Shown: in pieces, positions 18,838 through 56,473 of the stretch | Position numbering within the stretch: position 1 is the first letter of the stretch | Layout: every line of letters starts with the position of its first letter | Assembly: GCF_000384075.1 (NCBI RefSeq) | Contig: NZ_KB913025.1 | Coordinates: 1,120,119 to 1,184,118, forward strand | Source of the DNA: Methylovulum miyakonense HT12 | GTDB lineage: Bacteria > Pseudomonadota > Gammaproteobacteria > Methylococcales > Methylomonadaceae | Reading direction: 5' to 3' | Length of the DNA stretch: 64,000 bases | The notes under the pieces: model-generated | The model's input: the letters and a program-made list of their open reading frames with translations, nothing else | Databases searched by the model: none | What the model was told of the DNA's origin: nothing | Made by a program: the position numbers and the translations under genes

Positions 18838-18910
18838 GTAGGGTGGGCAACGCTTTTCTGCCCACCGATTATTCGGCAAATGGTGGGCAAAAAAGCATTG
18901 CCCACCCTAC
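18838..18910. repeat. REP-like palindromic repeat (GTAGGGTGGGCAACGC type)
   Basis: The ends GTAGGGTGGGCAACGC and its inverted copy frame a second inner inverted pair (GCCCACCG / TGGTGGGC), giving a long imperfect hairpin of 73 bp. A second copy lies at 30370-30443. It sits between the small acidic gene and bioF. Confidence 0.85.
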
Positions 18911-51231: not shown

Positions 51232-51309
51232 GTAGGGGCGAGCGGCTGCTCGCCTTTTTTAGCAGTTGGAATCCTTAAAGCTTGTCAGCGAGCAGCCGCT
51301 CGCCGCTAC
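51232..51309. repeat. REP-like palindrome (GTAGGGGCGAGCGGCTGC type)
   Basis: Left arm GTAGGGGCGAGCGGCTGC and right arm GCAGCCGCTCGCCGCTAC form a long hairpin around an AT-rich centre. A related copy lies at 56393-56473 in the same nir cluster. Confidence 0.85.
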
Positions 51310-51330: not shown

Positions 51331-51407
51331 GTAGGATGGGCTGAACGAAGGGATGCCCATCGTTTTTTATACATTTTGATGGGCTTCCTTACGTCAGCCC
51401 ATCCTAC
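51331..51407. repeat. REP-like palindrome (GTAGGATGGGCTGA type), providing the nirL stop codon
   Basis: Left arm GTAGGATGGGCTGAACGAAG and right arm CTTACGTCAGCCCATCCTAC are inverted copies of the family also inserted in nirF (53508-53602). Read leftward, its first TAG is the stop codon of nirL (51404-51406). Confidence 0.85.
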
Positions 51408-51904
51408 CCATTGGCAACAACCGCCATTGGCATCGCTTGATAAACCGCCCCGCGCTGCTTAAAACAGCGGCGGCTAAACAAAATCTGCCGCCCGTAACGC
51501 GCCAAACTGCACGCTTCGTTAAGCTGCTCCAATTGCGCCAGCACCGTGGCGCGGTCTTTGCCGTGGATCATACAGTACAGGTTATAAGGCCATTCCGGCT
51601 GTCTGGGGCGTTGGTAACACAGGTTCACAAAACTGAAATGGCTGATGTACATACCCAATTCCTTAATCAATTCATCAGGCACATCCCAAACTACCATCGC
51701 ATTGGCGCGATAGCCTAGCGGGCGGTGTTTGACGATGACACCTAAGCGTTTAATCAAGCCTTGGGCTTTCAATGCCGTGACACGGCTGATGACTTCCGCC
51801 TCGTCCATGCCTAGTTCCATACCGATTTGCGCGTAAGGACGCGGACACAAAGGCAAGCCCGCCGATACTTGCGCCAATACCGCCAAATCCCGTGCTTCAA
51901 GCAT
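51404..51904 (-). CDS. nirL: Siroheme decarboxylase subunit NirL (AsnC-like)
   Basis: The 166-residue protein has the NirL-type pattern LIKRLGVIVKHRPLGYRANAMVVWDVP (about 50-76) and CYQRPRQPEWPYNLYCMIHG. It overlaps nirD by eight bases. The final stop codon lies in the edge of a palindromic repeat (51331-51407), so the last residues (AVVANG) may have been set by that insertion. Together with NirD, NirG and NirH it decarboxylates siroheme. Confidence 0.9.
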   Translation of the reverse strand: MLEARDLAVLAQVSAGLPLCPRPYAQIGMELGMDEAEVISRVTALKAQGLIKRLGVIVKHRPLGYRANAMVVWDVPDELIKELGMYISHFSFVNLCYQRPRQPEWPYNLYCMIHGKDRATVLAQLEQLNEACSLARYGRQILFSRRCFKQRGAVYQAMPMAVVANG

Positions 51905-52361
51905 GTTGTAAATCCAATTTAAAACCTAAATCAATGAAAAAATCGTCCACCAACGGTAGCCGCAAAGCGGCATAACCTGTTTGTTGTTCGATGCGTTCAA
52001 TAACGGCCTGCAATTGTTGGACGGTAGCGGCGACAGCGACAAACCACACATTAAAGCGATGCTCACGTTCATAATTATGGTTGACCTCAGGAAATGCGCT
52101 GATTTGGTCCGCGACCCTCTGTAATTCGTTTTCTGGTACAGCCATTGCCACCAACATGCTCGCGCCGATTTGGTTGGGCGGGATCACCGCGCCAATCCGG
52201 CTGATGAATTGTTGCTCATTCAATTCTGCCAACGCGGCCAGCACGTCGGTTTCCGTCACGCCCAGCGTGTCGGCAATGTCGCGGTAAGGCGTGGGCGACA
52301 ACGGGAAATCACGTTGGAAATCATTTAACAAGTGTTTATGCAAATCCGTCAGCATGATCAA
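51897..52361 (-). CDS. nirD: Siroheme decarboxylase subunit NirD (AsnC-like)
   Basis: The 154-residue protein has the NirD-type pattern FISRIGAVIPPNQIGASMLVAMAVP (about 52-76) and the NHNYEREHRFNVWFVAV stretch with active-site-type residues. An M-I-M start allows either of two ATGs. Its start overlaps the nirF stop by four bases and its end overlaps nirL, so nirF-nirD-nirL are translationally linked. Confidence 0.92.
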   Translation of the reverse strand: MIMLTDLHKHLLNDFQRDFPLSPTPYRDIADTLGVTETDVLAALAELNEQQFISRIGAVIPPNQIGASMLVAMAVPENELQRVADQISAFPEVNHNYEREHRFNVWFVAVAATVQQLQAVIERIEQQTGYAALRLPLVDDFFIDLGFKLDLQHA

Positions 52362-53632
52362 AAACCAATTTTATGCGCCCGTGAGCTGAAAAAAATCCCG
52401 TTCGGATGTTGGGCGGCTAAACGCGGCGCGGCTTCTTGCAAGGTCGCCGTGTCATACACTACCACTTGATTGTCATCGCGCAACGCCACCCAAACCTGTT
52501 CGCCGCGTGGGGTAAATTCCATGTGCAACACGGCTTTGCCGGGCGTGAGCATGTTCGTGACCGCCAAGTCTTTCACATCAATGATTTGCAAGTGGTTGTT
52601 GTCCGGCATGGCGAAATTGACCCACACTTGCCGGGCATCAGGCCGCGCCATGACAAACACAGGCTGACCAAGCACGGGAATGGCTTTCAATAACGTCCAA
52701 TCGCGCTTGTTGATGACCAACACCTCATGCTTGCCTATCGCGGGTGCAAACAGCAAATCGCCCGCCATTGCCCAGCCTTCCAGATGCGGCATTTTGTACA
52801 CGGGCAATTTGTCGTCATCTTTGCCATACGTCGGCAAGATGCGCTTCACGCCAGCGGCAGTGTCCCACAAATCCAGCAAAGCCAAGCCGCTTTCGCCAAA
52901 CAATCCGGCGATGTAAAAACGCCCTTCCGGCGACATCAGCGCGTCATACGGTTCTTTACCGATGTTCTTGAATTTTGCGATGGCGGGCTTTTGCGGGTTT
53001 TTCATGTCCAGCGTCCAAATTTCTCCGGCATCAAACAGGCTAAAGACAAATTTTTGCCCTGGTGCATCGACCAAACCAACCACTTTAGAACGTTTGCCGG
53101 GCGCATATTCGGCGGGAATATCGGCGACTAATTCTAAAGTGTCAGCAGCGAACACTTTCACACCGCCCGGTTCGTAATTGGACACGGCGATCAATTTGCC
53201 GTCTTGTGAAATCGCCCCGCCGATGCTGTTGCCCGCTTGCACGATACGTTTGGCGAGTTGGTCTTGCAGCAAATCGATTTTGCTCAAACCGCCATCGCGC
53301 CCGAACACATAGGCATAGCGTTGGTCACGCGAAAACACGACCGTAGCGTGTGACAAATCGCCTAAGCCAGTGATTTTTGCCAGTTGCTTGTGTTCGGTGG
53401 TGTTGATAATCAAGGCCGTGCTGTCTTCGCGTTCGATGATTAAGCCTAAGTCGCCCGTGGCGCGGGGTTCGGCTAGCACATTGAAAGATAGCATTAACGC
53501 AAGAATCGTAGGTTGGGCTGACGATAGGAAGCCTTTATGCCCTAGAGGGTACAACATTTTCAACATTAGTTTGTTGGGCTTCCTATCGTCAGCCCAACCT
53601 ACATTATTTGAAGCCAGTAATAATTTGTTCAT
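52358..53632 (-). CDS. nirF: Heme d1 biosynthesis protein NirF, with repeat-derived insert in the signal peptide
   Basis: NirF is a periplasmic beta-propeller needed for a late step of heme d1 synthesis. The 424-residue protein has the conserved RATGDLGLIIERED start of the mature part, FGRDGGLSKIDLL, GNSIGGAISQDGKLIAVSNYEPGGVKVF and the C-terminal HPNGIFFSSRAHKIGF. At the N terminus, MNKLLLASN is followed by 32 residues (VGWADDRKPNKL...SSAQPT) encoded by a palindromic repeat, then ILALMLSFNVLAEP, the hydrophobic core and cleavage site. Without the repeat a normal 24-residue signal peptide is restored. Internal ATGs within the repeat could serve as new starts. Confidence 0.93.
   Translation of the reverse strand: MNKLLLASNNVGWADDRKPNKLMLKMLYPLGHKGFLSSAQPTILALMLSFNVLAEPRATGDLGLIIEREDSTALIINTTEHKQLAKITGLGDLSHATVVFSRDQRYAYVFGRDGGLSKIDLLQDQLAKRIVQAGNSIGGAISQDGKLIAVSNYEPGGVKVFAADTLELVADIPAEYAPGKRSKVVGLVDAPGQKFVFSLFDAGEIWTLDMKNPQKPAIAKFKNIGKEPYDALMSPEGRFYIAGLFGESGLALLDLWDTAAGVKRILPTYGKDDDKLPVYKMPHLEGWAMAGDLLFAPAIGKHEVLVINKRDWTLLKAIPVLGQPVFVMARPDARQVWVNFAMPDNNHLQIIDVKDLAVTNMLTPGKAVLHMEFTPRGEQVWVALRDDNQVVVYDTATLQEAAPRLAAQHPNGIFFSSRAHKIGF
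53508..53602. repeat. 95-bp palindromic repeat inserted in frame in nirF
   Basis: Left arm GTAGGTTGGGCTGACG and matching inverted right arm (through 53602) are complementary over about 26 bp each; the centre is AT-rich. It belongs to the same family as 51331-51407, and a half copy follows bioB near 18355-18380. It adds 96 nt net (32 codons) to the nirF signal-peptide region without a stop. Confidence 0.88.
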
Positions 53633-53667
53633 GATTCTGAATTATTCAAGTTAGTTTTTATTCGGCT

Positions 53668-54440: not shown

Positions 54441-54959
54441 TTAATGGCTTTGCCCAGGTGGCGGTGGGGCATAGCGTTTATCCAAATCGGCATCAATTTT
54501 CACCGTCAGGCTTTCAACGGCTTTGCGTGTCAATTTCTTATCGCCGCCTTTGGATTCGGAAATGTAATTGCCAACCAAACGTCCGTCTTTCACCCTAACT
54601 AAATGCCCCATCAGGTACGCAAACAAAAAACTGGGTTTATGCAAGCGACCAACCAACACATAATCCGCCCCGGCGCTTTTACCCAATTCCGCCACCACCT
54701 CGTCATGGTCAAACAAATAACCAAAACCGCTGGCCGCTCGTTGTTGCTTTTCTGCCGCCACCGGAATGATGTGGTAGCCCGCGCTTTGCAATTCCCTTTC
54801 CAGCAACGGTTTGATGCCGGCTGTCCGCGCCATTTCTTCTGGGATGCGCGGCTTCATGGTCAAGTCGTTCAGCTCAAAATCCAACACCGCAATGCGGGTT
54901 TCGGCTTGGCTTGGGGCGATTGACAAGGCCATTAATAGCAGGAAATAGGCGGTTTTCAT
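54441..54959 (-). CDS. DUF2380-like secreted protein in the nir cluster
   Basis: The 172-residue protein starts with a signal peptide (MKTAYFLLLMALSIAPSQA) and continues TRIAVLDFELNDLTMKPRIPEE, the start of DUF2380 (a domain with a TolB-N or GNA1162-like fold). It has no membrane anchor beyond the signal. I chose the ATG at 54959; a GTG nine codons earlier is possible. It lies among the nir genes on the same strand; whether it belongs to nitrite respiration or is a passenger is not known. Confidence 0.75.
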   Translation of the reverse strand: MKTAYFLLLMALSIAPSQAETRIAVLDFELNDLTMKPRIPEEMARTAGIKPLLERELQSAGYHIIPVAAEKQQRAASGFGYLFDHDEVVAELGKSAGADYVLVGRLHKPSFLFAYLMGHLVRVKDGRLVGNYISESKGGDKKLTRKAVESLTVKIDADLDKRYAPPPPGQSH

Positions 54960-54999
54960 TATTATGGTGGTGTAGTTTGTATTCACTTGCTCACTTGCC

Positions 55000-56392: not shown

Positions 56393-56473
56393 GTAGGGGC
56401 GGACGGTTGTCCGCCTTTTTTAGGGTCCGTACCGAAACCCGACGCCATCAGGCGAGCAACCGCTCGCCCCTAC
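56393..56473. repeat. REP-like palindrome (GTAGGGGCGGACGG type)
   Basis: Left arm GTAGGGGCGGACGGTTGTCC and right arm GGCGAGCAACCGCTCGCCCC with CTAC end form an imperfect hairpin related to the element at 51232-51309. It lies between the two cytochrome genes of the nir cluster. Confidence 0.8.

Follow-up and report, generated by a model that had tools for sequence, protein, structure and literature searches.

The nirF gene of Methylovulum miyakonense HT12, a probable methanotroph, lies in a 64,000-nt stretch of DNA, the whole of which was analysed and is referred to as the window, and its neighbours there include NirDL-like and Radical_SAM genes. The mature part of its product is a Cytochrom_D1 protein (PF02239, E 2.7e-108); a domain search gave no cytochrome c match in HT12 NirF, and no NCBIfam NirF model matched the product. 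We take the protein to be NirF, with a role in heme d1 biosynthesis, on the basis of PF02239 and the neighbouring genes. The features discussed are as follows (window positions; G167, or UBA662, is a second species with the insertion).

52358 to 53632, minus strand: nirF ORF, 424 codons including a 53-codon extended signal peptide
53633 to 53659, minus strand: leader 5' of the original nirF start
53505 to 53612, minus strand: block missing from insertion-free relatives, 108 nt or 36 codons, with edges ambiguous by a few nucleotides and placed by reading
53508 to 53602, minus strand: 95-nt palindrome encoding nirF codons 11-42 in frame 0; two GTAG REPs joined head to head
53573 to 53602, minus strand: upstream REP unit GTAGG-TTGGGCT-GACGATAGGA-AGCCCAA-C, with its own mini-hairpin and covariation of columns 6-29 and 11-24
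53564 to 53566, minus strand: internal ATG23, with AGGAAG upstream within the hairpin stem and no ATG counterpart in the G167 insert
53535 to 53553, minus strand: small hairpin TGTACCC-n-GGGCATAA nested in the spacer
53508 to 53533, plus strand: downstream REP unit, in inverted orientation and lacking the 3' part of its own small stem (one half)
53474 to 53506, minus strand: retained hydrophobic core and cleavage region, ILALMLSFNVL / AEP (Kyte-Doolittle)
51331 to 51407, unstranded: sister REP dimer of the same family

HT12 NirF opens with the residues MNKLLLASN, and the palindrome follows. Its arms are complementary at 26 of 26 positions and separated by 43 nt, its RNA folding energy is -60.1 kcal/mol, and the hairpin begins 30 nt 3' of the nirF start. 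Frame 0 of the element is open in both HT12 and G167, and the other two coding-strand frames are stopped in both. The initial annotation, which had described this opening, an in-frame and stop-free palindrome, a hydrophobic core and AEP site after the repeat, and arms matching a repeat at 51331-51407, is borne out on each count by the ORF and palindrome coordinates, by a core that scores like those of relatives and by an exact match to the arm pattern at 51331-51407.

The palindrome is a head-to-head dimer (BIME) of GTAG-type REP elements. Its arm pattern, GTAGGNTGGGCTGACGNNAGGAAGCCC, has 43 matches with at most two mismatches in the 4.69-Mb HT12 genome and none in the reversed control, so that the arm family lies far above chance; among 19 other genomes of the genus, 11 contain matches and eight do not, with 91 in G179, 16 in G174, 12 in G173, seven in G169 and one or two in each of seven others. 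A REP unit consists of GTAGG followed by the stem TTGGGCT/AGCCCAA around the loop GACGNNAGGA. Covariation was assessed on 35 distinct arms from the HT12 genome and its relatives, in which columns 1, 2 and 4 (G, T and G) are invariant, A3 is nearly so, and two of the seven stem pairs (6-29 and 11-24) vary on both sides: A-U/U-A/C-G and C-G/A-U/G-C/U-A. Paired cells make up 97.1% of the arm stem versus 82.7% in shuffles, the covariation score is 0.352 versus 0.084, and 30 cells are changed on both sides versus 10.3; the signal is gone once the partner is slid by one column. Two of the five measures were no better than shuffles, namely pairs changed on both sides (2 versus 2.0) and further pair types (8 versus 7.3). 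A plain simple repeat or terminator was also considered; the size of the family and its covariation rule this out. Across the 64-kb window, no match attained the gathering score of an Rfam family.

The 41 HT12 loci examined reduce to 35 distinct elements, single units and head-to-head dimers that are mostly extragenic, and when ORFs of at least 100 codons were tested, the nirF element was the only one of the 35 found inside a conserved gene. Besides it, four of the 35 sit in open frames of 100 codons or more. Three of the four frames lack a Pfam match; the fourth, an ABC transporter, was rejected as a coding REP, for its Pfam match begins at residue 59 and the repeat, at codon 14, was taken as upstream. 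With arms scattered genome-wide in HT12, the earlier proposal that a dispersed palindrome became coding sequence of an export signal is supported. A second HT12 element (1988545-1988641) matches that of nirF at 77% over the whole 95 nt, and the GTAG end of the sister dimer (51404-51407) forms the TAG stop of a nirD/L-type gene (51404-51904). The nested hairpin has 11 matches in the HT12 genome; of 10 copies inspected, seven lie in REPs by reading (including that of nirF, and two with a worn GTAGG). Three copies (L303, L307 and L310) stand outside REPs, and the remainder, in REP loops or spacers, form a repeat within a repeat. Further GTAG-tagged palindromes of different sequence occur in the window at 51232-51309, 56393-56473 and 18838-18910, and are perhaps more REP families.

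REP-associated transposase genes are also present in the genus. The sole Y1-transposase match in G179 adjoins a 75-nt dimer of the same family immediately 5' of the gene, a second dimer lies some 0.6 kb further on, and the gene product matches NCBIfam REP_Tyr_transpos (NF047646, E 1.3e-60); G174 has two such genes beside REPs of sister subfamilies. The HT12 genome gave 10 Y1-transposase (PF01797) matches. Among those with a usable protein (L144, a 7-residue piece, was left out), no close homologue of the G179 transposase was found, the best having 61% identity and being flanked by a different REP, and the source of mobility may thus be gone in HT12. RAYT-like genes at L145, L147 and the G174 loci L270 and L272-L275 adjoin REPs whose stem or loop sequences are often different. 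Transposase and repeat look as if they were matched pairs in the genus.

The size of the insertion was obtained by codon comparison with the 17-codon signal peptides of six relatives (G173, G179, G199, G177, G176 and G170). In many close insertion-free relatives the mature A-E-P is preceded by exactly 17 codons, as in MNKLLPALALLCSLTAQ, versus 53 in HT12 and 47 in G167, or 36 and 30 extra. The 108-nt block corresponds to the 95-nt palindrome plus 13 nt; filled and empty sites align, by reading, as ...CTG GC/.../T CTT GCG..., and comparison with the relatives' empty target sites left the 13 nt beside the palindrome unexplained, with no clear duplication. The original estimate of 32 residues and 96 nt omits 12 nt of the block that relatives lack. 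Nor is 24 residues the normal signal length, as had been supposed: the other genus members compared have signals of 16-20 codons by nearest ATG, or by TTG in two. Of the 146 nirF rows of the family, which comprise all near-full matches and exclude fragments in G221, G155 and G126 as well as weak or unlisted matches, 138 have their nearest in-frame ATG at a distance of 13-27 codons from the mature start. The remaining eight are HT12, G167, two long N-termini (L053 and L056), three rows with no ATG (L034, L035 and L258) and one cut row (L212). In the long ones the nearest ATG is 54 (L053, G101) and 40 (L056, G052) codons away, and no inverted repeat was flagged in either. In G169 (L034/L062) and G174 (L035/L063), no in-frame ATG precedes the nirF signal, and translation probably starts at a TTG located 19 codons upstream of the mature part; the predicted Shine-Dalgarno pairing of this TTG is strong (-4.9 and -7.1 kcal/mol).

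G167 (L039 = L066), the one further genome in which the insertion was found, carries it at the same site, with nearly equal nirF flanks and MNKSLLASNTVGWAGGRKPNASKPRLSGILLSAQTTLLVLLLSFNAY directly before AEP. The G167 insert is worn, still open in frame 0 and 18 nt shorter than that of HT12, the difference corresponding to the nested hairpin TGTACCC-n-GGGCATAA; its palindrome of 77 nt has a common dimer length (6 of 20 dimers from HT12 and other genomes). The arms have decayed, with seven arm-to-arm mismatches of which four are G-U wobbles, yet the RNA folds at -41.6 kcal/mol. The residues of this relative have thus not lost their repeat character, as the arms are still recognisable. No other arm-pattern match was found in G167, a draft genome that is 92% complete. 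The left junction is matched exactly in HT12 and G167 only among 237 family genomes; nine three-mismatch matches occur elsewhere, in G066 and G143. HT12 and G167 arms differ at 9 of 52 positions. Six of the nine do not belong to the two free loop positions, and HT12 holds the usual family letter at each of these six. By resemblance, the HT12 nirF dimer is like a subtype found elsewhere in the HT12 genome. Gene conversion, template switching at imperfect palindromes (PMC7202029 names this mechanism) or a fresh insertion into the old copy would explain the perfect HT12 arms.

Mature NirF is under purifying selection, with dN/dS of about 0.06-0.08: dN is 0.065 and dS 0.782 between HT12 and G167, where 61 of 154 fourfold sites differ, and dN is 0.031 and dS 0.546 between HT12 and G179. 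For the inserted codons 8-42, the HT12-G167 comparison gave pN 0.26 and pS 0.32, which is near neutral, and the inserted residues are most likely tolerated without having been favoured by selection. The stretch of 62 nt that runs from the leader into the first repeat bases has 4 differences between HT12 and G167, which compares with the 61 of 154 at fourfold sites of mature nirF.

The nirF tree groups HT12 with G179 and G173 (98/98), G167 with G168 (99/96) and all five together (100/98), and a clade of HT12 and G167 was rejected by the AU test (p 0.0026). The insertion is present in two of these five species and the site is empty in three, which requires two state changes on the nirF tree; this distribution conflicts with the tree, so that losses or an exchange of the 5' end must be invoked. 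The choice is between an insertion ancestral to the five species with two later losses and an exchange of the 5' end. Independent insertion in HT12 and G167 was also considered and is unlikely, given that the near identity extends to the leader and to the 10 nt adjoining the repeat. Site patterns lent 5'-end recombination no support, though it may have occurred: HT12 shared more sites with G167 than with G179 and G173 in 2 of 12 windows (0-100, 7 versus 5 sites; 400-500, 8 versus 4), and with G168 added the first 110 nt held 2 versus 2 sites (Fisher p 0.14; mosaic scan p 0.65). In G168 (UBA659; L040 = L067), the nirF signal peptide is close to that of the DUF3280 gene which lies upstream of nirF in the window (54441-54986): MKTVYFLLLIALSITLTQ versus MKTAYFLLLMALSIAPSQ. 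The body of the DUF3280 gene was not found at the G168 nirF locus. The resemblance has the appearance of a signal-peptide swap by deletion, and such a swap would be one way of losing the insertion.

Taken as a whole, the account that we consider probable is that translation from the original ATG turns the REP dimer into a long basic n-region and that NirF is still exported. A REP-associated tyrosine transposase, of the kind still found beside cognate repeats in G179, would have mobilised a GTAG REP dimer, which would have inserted at about codon 7 of the signal peptide of nirF, in the repeat's one open frame. The original ATG would still start translation, the repeat being read as a 36-codon extension (30 in G167) that displaces the old first residues and provides a new basic n-region, DDRKPNK..K in HT12 and GGRKPNASKPR in G167. 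As the h-region and the A-type cleavage site are intact, the pre-protein would still be exported and the extension cut off. The HT12 arms may have stayed perfect or been re-perfected among some 35 sister elements, and those of G167, the sole match found there, have decayed. Net charge before the core is +4 in HT12 and +5 in G167, and the 12-residue Kyte-Doolittle maximum of the core is 2.32 in HT12, whether or not the repeat is included, and 2.0 in G167 (median of 136 relatives, 2.19); charge and hydropathy of the extended HT12 N-terminus fit a Sec-type signal peptide. The predicted Shine-Dalgarno pairing at the original ATG is weak (0.4 kcal/mol), which is ordinary for nirF (median 0.65, n=136). 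Against this account count the -60 kcal/mol hairpin near the start, which might lower expression, the weaker Shine-Dalgarno pairing of the original ATG relative to ATG23, the lack of a close homologue of the G179 transposase among the usable HT12 proteins, the two covariation measures that were no better than shuffles, and the conflict between the insertion's distribution and the nirF tree.

ATG codons within the repeat had been proposed as a new start, and in HT12 translation might begin at ATG23 by means of the AGGAAG of the REP arm, giving MLKMLYPLGHKGFL... and leaving the old start as a relic. The predicted Shine-Dalgarno pairing of ATG23 (-4.2 kcal/mol) is indeed better than that of the original ATG, just 3% of the 136 relatives' starts being stronger, and the product would have a 31-residue signal with a net charge of +2 before the core. 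However, the AGGAAG is locked in the 26-bp stem; the G167 insert has no ATG, and the single internal TTG of G167 that lies over 10 codons upstream of the mature part would give a signal without a basic residue; and HT12 and G167 agree well over the old leader, the ATG and the first codons. We regard a re-built start as unlikely, the good ribosome-binding prediction standing and the start itself finding no counterpart in G167. A variant in which the dimer has been co-opted for NirF expression, its basic codons serving as the n-region and the hairpin with AGGAAG gating a second, internal start in HT12, seems quite improbable; if it were true, one mobile repeat would be both a targeting element and a translational switch of a denitrification gene.

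It had also been suggested that the insertion may damage NirF export. A strong hairpin close to the start, the three insertion-free species among the clade's five, and a G168 signal that resembles that of a neighbouring gene would all suit a gene that is being lost through impaired export or translation. The low dN/dS of mature NirF, the frame kept open in HT12 and G167 despite an 18-nt difference and many substitutions, and the intact, relative-like hydrophobic core speak against it, and we hold this reading to be quite unlikely. It is highly improbable that the repeat owes its retention to an RNA hairpin that adjusts the translation of nirF or the stability of its mRNA, with the reading frame being incidental. 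Both copies fold strongly, more than half of the G167 arm mismatches are wobble pairs, and REP dimers have been discussed as RNA-level control elements (PMC3733652), but the two copies differ in length by a multiple of 3, and both are free of stops in frame 0.

The nirF case has several implications. Fresh-looking (HT12), worn (G167) and empty (close relatives) alleles can be compared to see how a selfish palindrome turns coding, and since NirF export can be assayed, the seeding of new protein segments by repeats becomes a testable idea. The case also suggests that the n-region of signal peptides is forgiving, and it bears on the doubt in the REP literature as to whether NH2-terminal REPs are translated.

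None of the papers in the collection searched mentions both Methylovulum and nirF, and a REP in the NirF signal was not named among the matches listed. Among the closest known systems are GTAG REPs, for which a 2013 study described head-to-head dimers with a spacer, RAYT association and REPs in ORFs (PMC3733652); the nirF case shares the GTAG end, the short palindrome, the head-to-head dimer and the RAYT association with the GTAG REPs or BIMEs in ORFs described in the portion of that paper drawn on here. The same portion reports that GTAG ends often provide the TAG stop of flanking ORFs, as the sister dimer at 51331-51407 does, and that dimers or groups in ORFs encode 20-30 residues, some of them NH2-terminal. 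Many NH2-terminal REPs are there considered possibly non-coding, as translation may start downstream (PMC3733652). Unlike those cases, as far as that portion describes them, nirF offers a second species in which the old start is retained and an internal ATG is missing, which argues for translation, and here a defined gene was hit in its signal peptide. Rickettsia palindromic elements (RPE) are likewise palindromes inserted in frame, in unrelated protein genes (PMC10969869, PMC3733652), but in these excerpts RPE-4/6 are CGTC-tagged whereas the nirF repeat is GTAG-tagged, with sequences compared by the Rfam scan only. Long inverted repeats also lie in coding sequence as the coding palindromes of nematomorph mitochondrial genes (PMC6649704); these are animal mitochondrial genes, and the excerpt of that paper mentions no REP or transposase. 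The RU-2 repeat forms part of the predicted signal peptide of YPO1552 (PMC2759123, PMC2229807) and, like the nirF dimer, is a small mobile repeat contributing to a predicted signal peptide; in the excerpts of these papers YPO1552 is a putative exported protein, whereas nirF is a conserved nir gene whose relatives include both insertion-free and insertion-bearing forms. Published precedents thus exist both for REP dimers in ORFs and for a mobile repeat within a predicted signal peptide, and what is new is the nirF example with its second allele.
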